A stretch of DNA of 33,413 nucleotides, taken from positions 1 to 33,413 of the IMG/VR virus record IMGVR_UViG_3300044655_000745, one strand, 5' to 3'. The position numbers and the translations under genes are program-made. The notes beneath the pieces are model-generated. The model did no database searches, had not been told where the DNA came from, and was given only the letters and a program-made list of their open reading frames with translations. This DNA is from a virus. Below, piece by piece: positions 6,815 through 7,896 of this stretch. Every line of letters starts with the position of its first letter. The first letter of the stretch is position 1.

Positions 6815-7225
6815 ATGATGGATGATATATTTAAAGGACATGGAGTCGAAATCATATTAGAAAACGAAGAAGCTTTTCTAAAAATTAGAGAAACACTAAG
6901 TAGAATTGGAGTGGCATCTAGGAAAGAAAGAACATTATATCCAAGTTGTTATATTCTACACAAAAGAGGATTTTATCGAATTGTCCATTTTAAAGAGCTT
7001 TTTGCTCTTGATGGTAGACCTACAGATATTTCAGAAAATGATTTAGCCAGAAGAAATAGTATCGCTTTGCTTTTACAAGATTGGGAACTATTGAAACTGA
7101 CTAACGAAAAAAGTGTCCAAGAAAACACTGTAGATTTGGGTCAAATTAAGATTTTAACACATAAAGAAAAATCCGATTGGGTAATTGCACACAAATATTC
7201 TATAGGATCTAGAAAAAGTAATTAG
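6815..7225 (+). CDS. regA: Translational repressor RegA
   Basis: The protein binds the start regions of early phage mRNAs, in T4 including genes 44, 45 and regA itself, and blocks translation. The 136 residues align with T4 RegA (122 residues): FLKIRETLSRIGVASRKERTLYPSCYILHKRGFY, IVHFKELFALDGRP, RRNSIALLLQDWELL, and an end of the form WVIAHKYSIG. About ten extra residues sit at the N-terminus. Two adjacent ATGs (6815, 6818) follow GGAG; either may be used. The gene lies directly after 62, as in T4. Autogenous control is expected from the family, and the hairpin just upstream is a candidate part of it. Confidence 0.95.
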   Translation: MMDDIFKGHGVEIILENEEAFLKIRETLSRIGVASRKERTLYPSCYILHKRGFYRIVHFKELFALDGRPTDISENDLARRNSIALLLQDWELLKLTNEKSVQENTVDLGQIKILTHKEKSDWVIAHKYSIGSRKSN

Positions 7226-7229
7226 TTTA

Positions 7230-7237
7230 TATAAATA
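7230..7237 (+). promoter_or_regulatory. T4-type late promoter for hsp20
   Basis: A perfect TATAAATA, the -10 element read by the T4-type late sigma factor gp55, lies 5 bases after regA. With the usual 5-6 base distance to the start site, RNA would begin near base 7243, exactly where the first leader hairpin begins. By eye, the only other exact copies on the + strand are also intergenic (29005, 30681). Confidence 0.75.
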
Positions 7238-7242
7238 AAAGT

Positions 7243-7391
7243 GTTCGGGACTTAAAGCGAACTAAAATAAAAGAAAGCGTATCATGTAACCGATCCATAC
7301 GAAAAAGGGATGCTGGCGGCGGAACCAGCAATACTTTGCCTTCGGGGAAGTTATTTTTAAAATTAATCTTGCTTATTAAAGGAGAAATCAT
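7243..7391 (+). promoter_or_regulatory. Structured hsp20 leader, ROSE-like RNA thermometer candidate
   Basis: The leader holds four stem-loops: GTTCG/CGAAC (7243-7247 with 7258-7262), CGTAT/ATACG (7278-7282 with 7297-7301), TGCTGG/CCAGCA (7311-7316 with 7325-7330), and ACTT plus CC closed by a UUCG tetraloop (7333-7351). A last hairpin pairs 7367-7373 (TCTTGCT) with 7380-7385 (AGGAGA). It contains U-A, C-G, U-A, U-G, an unpaired G, C-G and U-A. This hides the hsp20 Shine-Dalgarno site opposite UUGCU. ROSE thermometers of bacterial small heat shock genes have several hairpins and a final U(U/C)GCU paired imperfectly to AGGA with an extruded G. The match is by sequence and layout; no folding was run. 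Confidence 0.65.
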
Positions 7392-7865
7392 ATGACACAC
7401 ACATACGGTAAAAGTCTATTACCTGCAACTGTTGGTTTTGATCGTCTATTTTCCACAATGGAAGAATTAGACAAAATGCTTGGGGCAACCAAAGCGCCAA
7501 CATATCCACCATATAATATCGTTAAATTTGATAATTATAATTATGAGATTCAAATTGCTGTTGCTGGATTTGGACAAGACGATATTAGTGTCGAAACAAA
7601 CCATAATAAATTATATGTTTCCGGAGTTTCCGAAAAGTCGGAATTGGATGGAGAATATTTACATCATGGTTTGGCTAAACGCGATTTTAAACACGTTTTT
7701 ACGCTATCTGATACATCAGTAGTCAATTCTGCTGAGATTAAAGATGGAATATTGAAAATTTCAATTGAAAATGTGATTCCAGAATCAATGCGTCCGAGAA
7801 AAATTCCCATTGGGATTCCCCAACAAGCCGCTCTTCTAACAGAAGATAAAGCGGAAGAAAAATGA
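7392..7865 (+). CDS. hsp20: Small heat shock protein, Hsp20/IbpA family
   Basis: This is an ATP-independent chaperone with an alpha-crystallin domain. The 157 residues show the class A (IbpA-like) pattern: YPPYNI (38-43), YEIQIAVAGF (51-60), ISVETNHNKLYVSG, a GLAKRDFKHVFTLSD segment, and the end motif GILKI (119-123) that holds the I/V-x-I type contact. A short Lys/Glu tail follows. An AAGGAG site ends 7 bases before the ATG and is the strand masked in the leader hairpin. In T4-like marine phages Hsp20 is a core gene, thought to aid capsid or scaffold folding. The late promoter here fits a role in assembly. A strong terminator follows directly. Confidence 0.95.
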   Translation: MTHTYGKSLLPATVGFDRLFSTMEELDKMLGATKAPTYPPYNIVKFDNYNYEIQIAVAGFGQDDISVETNHNKLYVSGVSEKSELDGEYLHHGLAKRDFKHVFTLSDTSVVNSAEIKDGILKISIENVIPESMRPRKIPIGIPQQAALLTEDKAEEK

Positions 7866-7867
7866 GC

Positions 7868-7896
7868 AAAGGGGGCGTTTGCCCCCTTTACTTTTA
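7868..7896 (+). terminator. Rho-independent terminator after hsp20
   Basis: A perfect 9-base stem AAAGGGGGC/GCCCCCTTT (7868-7876 with 7881-7889) with a GTTT loop is followed by ACTTTT. It is strikingly GC-rich for this genome and begins 3 bases after the hsp20 stop codon, so the hsp20 transcript is likely to end here. Confidence 0.92.

Follow-up and report, generated by a model that had tools for sequence, protein, structure and literature searches.

The hsp20 Locus and Its Leader

The window, that is, the whole stretch of 33,413 nucleotides analyzed here (IMG/VR virus record IMGVR_UViG_3300044655_000745), is a genome fragment from a T4-like phage, with the gene order gp45, gp44, gp62, regA, hsp20, gp43. 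In this set, gp45 encodes the clamp, gp44 and gp62 the clamp loader, and gp43 the polymerase. The hsp20 product is 36% identical to IbpA of Escherichia coli. hsp20 is a core gene in T4-like cyanophages (PMC3037559), but no role has been agreed for it. The gap of 166 bases between regA (stop codon at 7223–7225) and hsp20 starts with the motif TATAAATA. As hsp20 is also followed by a terminator-like hairpin, it resembles a late unit of its own. A sequence-only reading of the window had proposed that this gap encodes a ROSE-like RNA thermometer under a late promoter, and all the coordinates that it gave were correct. The features of the locus are as follows.

7230–7237, + strand: T4-type late promoter TATAAATA, directly 3' of the regA stop codon (sequence)
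7243–7262, + strand: 5' hairpin GTTCG (7243–7247)/CGAAC (7258–7262), at the predicted transcript start (sequence; kept in loci L010, L011, and L015; window clade only)
7278–7311, + strand: candidate H-type pseudoknot, CGTAT 7278–7282/ATACG 7297–7301 and ATCC 7293–7296/GGAT 7308–7311 (sequence)
7312–7329, + strand: hairpin GCTGG/CCAGC of the clade-specific 5' module (sequence; conserved in L010, L011, and L015)
7333–7351, + strand: ROSE hairpin I, ACUUU-(G7338)-CC-UUCG-GG-GAAGU, with bulged G7338 (covariation; YGC..GG motif; ROSE_3 consensus)
7367–7385, + strand: ROSE hairpin II, the putative thermometer, UCUU-(G7371)-CU 7367–7373 with AGGAGA 7380–7385, loop 7374–7379 (conserved pairs; R1 match)
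7380–7384, + strand: Shine-Dalgarno (SD) sequence AGGAG of hsp20, the masked element (sequence)
7392–7865, + strand: hsp20, IbpA-like small heat shock protein (sHsp) of 157 amino acids (Pfam PF00011, 1.1e-15; phrog_432, 2.2e-38)
7868–7889, + strand: intrinsic-terminator-like hairpin 3' of hsp20 (terminator scan)

The proposed late promoter fits the sequence. The late consensus in use in cyanophages is TATAAAT (PMC3037559). With the spacing that is usual for T4 late promoters, the predicted transcript begins at the 5' base of the GTTCG/CGAAC hairpin, position 7243; this start, also part of the earlier proposal, stays an inference from T4 spacing. Of 165 hsp20 leaders, 43 have an exact copy of TATAAATA within 200 bases, versus 11 of 209 controls, and a further 71 have a form with one mismatch. 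Late promoters are thus common among phage hsp20 leaders without being shown for all of them.

The SD Sequence of Phage hsp20 Genes Is Masked by a Conserved Hairpin

In the window, UUGCU faces AGGA with G7371 left unpaired, and the helix also contains a U-G pair. This confirms the final hairpin (7367–7373 with 7380–7385, one G left out) noticed by the sequence-only reading. The arrangement of CU(U/C)GCU opposite the SD AGGAG with a single bulged G is the ROSE signature. The leaders compared were taken from viral IMG/VR loci found by hsp20 and regA searches and from 15 named phages. An alignment of 17 diverse Hsp20 proteins was too divergent as a query, and two narrower alignments were used instead.

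Nearly every hsp20 leader carries CU(U/C)GCU a few bases before the SD, followed by a loop of 3–8 bases and AGGAG. The shorter motif U(U/C)GCU occurs just 5' of the SD in 134 of 156 hsp20 leaders, versus 7 of 217 other genes. Of 165 distinct leaders of phage hsp20 genes, 163 have all five pairs of hairpin II. The full stem forms in only 3 of 217 SD-bearing genes from the same loci and, after shuffling of the sequence 5' of the SD, in 4.1% of the leaders. The stem counted here has a fixed set of five pairs and one extra G on the 5' strand; the count is pattern-based, so the bulge is required in each stem counted. As MAFFT misplaces hairpin II by at least one base in some rows, pair counts were made from a motif-anchored extraction or a selected set. 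In the giant Pseudomonas phage PA5oct (L113), the SD hairpin itself has four pairs and the five pairs counted lie elsewhere; one leader first scored as motif-less (L166) had a wrong start.

Locus L024 provides a natural control. Its regA is followed by a late promoter and a comparable first hairpin; the next gene, however, is a different one of 90 residues, and the anti-SD hairpin is missing. This arrangement at the usual place of hsp20 (L024:3880–4040) is also seen in L025.

The predicted folding energy of the whole window leader is no better than that of its shuffles (z 0.12), and the case therefore rests on comparison. A DNA-level search for the leader in phages returned chance matches only.

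Compensatory Changes Support the Pairing

Among the 165 leaders, the outer pair of hairpin II is CG in 128, GC in 35, and UG in one, with one off-site AT in PA5oct. The next pair is UA in 144 and AU in 20, with one off-site GC, and the third is CG in 148 and UG in 17. The outer C-G is exchanged for G-C in the S-CAM4 group (GUCGCU..AGGAC). In a second variant group (AGACGCU..AGGUCU), the outer and the next pair are both reversed, and in S-CREM2 (CUUGCC..GGGAG), the inner U-A has become C-G. Most leaders first scored as motif-less proved on inspection to be such variants with compensatory changes, and we regard them as the best support for the pairing. A tree of the Hsp20 proteins puts the number of changes at about five (four to five) for the outer pair and about three (two to three) for the next pair; the partner strand changed each time, apart from one U-G wobble. 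A sign test would need more independent events than these, and the resolution of the tree is poor. The sequence-only reading would have been refuted by a lack of compensatory changes in related phages; it passes this test in both hairpin I and hairpin II.

As a side observation, the AGAC-G-CU/AGGUCU helix of L131, L133, L138, and about 17 others overlaps only the second half of AAGGAGG.

Hairpin I Completes a Two-Hairpin Unit

Hairpin II belongs to a conserved two-hairpin unit whose first member, hairpin I (7333–7351), the sequence-only reading had not picked out. Its YGC..GG motif is present in 153 of 156 leaders. The outer stem covaries strongly, the core Y-G-CC/GG-G with its unpaired G is fixed, and two-sided changes affect four of the seven pairs. 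The covariation score of the whole structure is 0.366 versus 0.131 for shuffled alignments (0/500). RNAfold draws hairpin I with either a bulged G or a G-G mismatch, which involve the same bases. The Rfam ROSE_3 consensus holds the same hairpin (GAUGCCGAAgUCGGGUC).

An unpaired G sits beside a Y-G pair in both hairpins. Such a repeated motif could signal binding by a protein, possibly Hsp20 itself.

Searches with Covariance Models

No Rfam ROSE model reached its gathering score on the window, and no Rfam ROSE family did so in the 15 named phages. On the window, ROSE_2 (RF01832) scored 12.1 bits against a gathering score of 65, which does not meet the threshold, and ROSE_3 (RF02523) gave no match at E ≤ 1. 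Five of the named phages have ROSE_3 matches below the gathering score of 43: Melnitz-3 (34.1 bits), MED4-213 (29.2), Atu_ph07 (28.0), C48C1 (26.8), and Syn1 (21.6). All five lie exactly upstream of hsp20, the best with an E value of 9e-4. The Rfam scan, which the sequence-only reading had named as a check, therefore leaves the window below threshold but gives correctly placed subthreshold matches in these phages. A plain Rfam scan gave no family at its gathering score, and low-scoring matches to freshwater-2 and PsrR1 were dismissed as chance.

We built a covariance model, R1, from 19 leaders, leaving out the window's clade. Its sole significant match in the window is 7331–7390 (28.5 bits, E about 1e-6; next best E 0.67). 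In 18 whole phage records, R1 found exactly one site in 13, always the hsp20 leader; under strict whole-genome filters it missed L010, which belongs to the same clade as the window, and also four named phages out of the 15. R1 also matches the leader of E. coli ibpB, directly upstream of that gene, with 19.3 bits and an E value of 0.0015. This bacterial leader (L277:651–702, − strand; CUCGCU..AGGAG) is thus recognized by a model built from phages.

A Clade-Specific 5' Module

The leader part 7243–7329 is specific to the window's clade. Positions 7273–7332 are nearly invariant in the window and its three closest distinct relatives, L010, L011, and L015, even though the Hsp20 proteins of these relatives share only 66–72% identity with that of the window. 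The sequence-only reading had suggested a 4-base pseudoknot pairing with 7308–7311. The complementarity is present, but the paired bases are invariant in the four clade members, so there is no covariation evidence for it. Loci L002, L016, and L023 carry at the same place a different sequence with an H-type pseudoknot, for which three two-sided changes are seen among the three sequences. These sister-clade sites (L002:2695–2739, L016:2898–2942, and L023:3318–3363) lie 5' of hairpin I and show compensatory changes in both stems. A search of IMG/VR for either 5' module away from these leaders returned the same hsp20-leader clades and no others. The module might protect the 5' end or provide a second input. 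The sequence GCTGGCGGCG (window 7312–7321) is identical to a 10-mer near the 5' end of 16S rRNA, probably a coincidence.

A ROSE-Type Thermometer as the Likely Function

The sequence, conservation, covariation, and location of the leader element are shown by these data. We consider it likely, with a probability of about 0.8, that the element is a short two-hairpin ROSE-type RNA thermometer controlling the translation of the phage IbpA-like sHsp; its response to temperature is inferred, in the absence of temperature data. It meets the ROSE criteria, namely U(U/C)GCU/SD pairing in the 3'-most hairpin, an unpaired G opposite the SD, two to four hairpins, and compensatory change, although in few events. 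The interpretation of the sequence-only reading is supported, its temperature response and transcription start being inferred only.

In the proposed mechanism, late transcription would supply the hsp20 mRNA. At normal temperature, hairpin II would hide the SD through CU(U/C)GCU, in a helix kept weak by its unpaired G and by the U-G pair present in the window. Warming or partial unfolding would free the SD, and Hsp20 would be made. Hairpin I would act as a stable 5' companion, probably aiding folding and mRNA stability.

Between 25 and 42 °C, the predicted open probability of the four core SD bases increases 18-fold (median); the increase in control genes is 2.4-fold. However, in a longer context the mean accessibility of the window's SD changes little, being 0.23 at 25 °C and 0.33 at 42 °C, and the same short-segment calculation on E. 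coli ibpA shows no opening with heat. For these two reasons, the energy estimates are only suggestive. The thermometer reading rests mainly, by analogy, on tested ROSE elements that have the identical motif and architecture: Pseudomonas two-hairpin ROSE leaders with the same motif are proven thermometers (PMC3669281).

A thermometer or proteostasis sensor in nearly every copy of the gene would imply that Hsp20 must be made on demand. Control through the leader would make the development of the phage depend on temperature or on damage to proteins.

Alternative Explanations

The best surviving alternative is that the leader is mainly autoregulatory. Hsp20 would bind its own leader and repress translation as long as it is not titrated by its clients; the leader would then sense protein aggregation rather than temperature; it could also act alongside a thermometer. 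In E. coli, IbpA binds its own 5' UTR through Arg93, a residue that it needs to repress ibpA translation (PMC10474464), and the equivalent residue is kept in 155 of 162 phage Hsp20 proteins, including that of the window. The conserved bulged G of both hairpins could be a repeated protein-recognition motif, and a capsid-assembling phage in water of stable temperature would gain from sensing client load. On the other hand, Arg97 is kept in only 121 of 162 proteins and Lys98, the charge of which IbpA needs, in none of the 162. Furthermore, the pairing is kept by compensatory change, which is not required of a pure sequence-specific binding site. The argument is by analogy, with no binding data, and we consider this reading less likely than not, but it remains a serious addition or rival to the thermometer.

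A bolder reading, no more than possible, combines both in a two-input viral sensor. The ROSE hairpin pair would integrate temperature and Hsp20/client load, in addition to the 7243–7329 module. In this scheme, this near-invariant and possibly pseudoknotted module would sense something else or shield the 5' end.

Hairpin II could also be a fixed translational brake that lowers or delays Hsp20 synthesis without any response in the temperature range of the host. In agreement with this, the core SD in isolation is, according to nearest-neighbor energies, still mostly closed at 42 °C, with a median open probability of 0.015. However, nearly all members keep the bulged G, for which a fixed brake would have no need, and the same motif is heat-responsive in Pseudomonas (PMC3669281). 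We consider this explanation unlikely.

Still weaker is the possibility that hairpin I and a U-run form an intrinsic terminator, 7243–7357 being a separate small RNA and the hsp20 mRNA mainly a read-through product. The UUCG hairpin of the window is indeed followed by UUAUUUUU, and the 7273–7332 core is very conserved in the window's clade. However, most phages have no U-run after hairpin I, the terminator scan lists the hairpin 3' of hsp20 and not hairpin I, and the same hairpin belongs to bacterial ROSE_3 leaders. This reading is very improbable.

Finally, chance complementarity to the SD, which the window alone would not rule out (z 0.12), is all but excluded by the count of 163/165 versus 3/217 together with the covariation.

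Origin and Comparison with Known Systems

The open-access literature that we searched, which leaves subscription papers uncovered, contained no mention of a viral ROSE element or of an RNA thermometer controlling the small heat shock gene of a phage. On that provisional basis, this would be the first ROSE element described in viruses.

The nearest bacterial homologs of the phage genes are proteobacterial ibpA-like genes. Among the 80 closest, U(U/C)GCU precedes an SD-like GGA/GGT in 77, and hairpin I occurs in several as GATGC..GGTC. This shared motif indicates that gene and leader were probably acquired together. In bacteria, ibpA is transcribed with a heat-shock sigma factor (PMC3669281). 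We infer that the phages likely hold gene and leader from a proteobacterial ibpA, with the heat-shock promoter exchanged for a phage promoter. This suggests the capture of a host stress gene with its RNA control, the promoter being replaced.

Several other known leaders can be compared with the phage element. In the phage lambda cIII RNA switch, translation of a phage mRNA also depends on temperature (PMC4166951), but the architecture is different: two alternative folds are involved and expression is repressed at high temperature. The cyanobacterial hsp17/hspA leaders are likewise sHsp thermometers, and one Anabaena leader is ROSE-like. However, they are structurally diverse, and that of Synechocystis hsp17 is a single short hairpin. 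ROSE_2, found at ibpA of E. coli and relatives, has an identical core (CUCGCU..AGGAG) but is longer, with three to four hairpins. The E. coli ibpB leader, although matched by R1, precedes the second gene of a chromosomal operon, unlike the phage case.

The closest counterpart is ROSE_3, which groups the short two-hairpin Pseudomonas ibpA thermometers. Like the phage element, it consists of two hairpins in the 5' UTR of an IbpA-type sHsp gene. Hairpin I (GAUGCC..GGGUC) has an unpaired G, and in hairpin II CU(U/C)GCU faces AGGAG, again with an unpaired G; the phage hairpins are alike. The phage element differs by belonging to T4-like lytic phages, by the late promoter often found nearby, by its subthreshold score, by its mostly AU-rich spacers and short loops of 4–8 nt, and, in the window's clade, by the extra 5' module. 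It represents a viral branch of a known ROSE-type element, distinguished by its near-universality in phage hsp20 genes.
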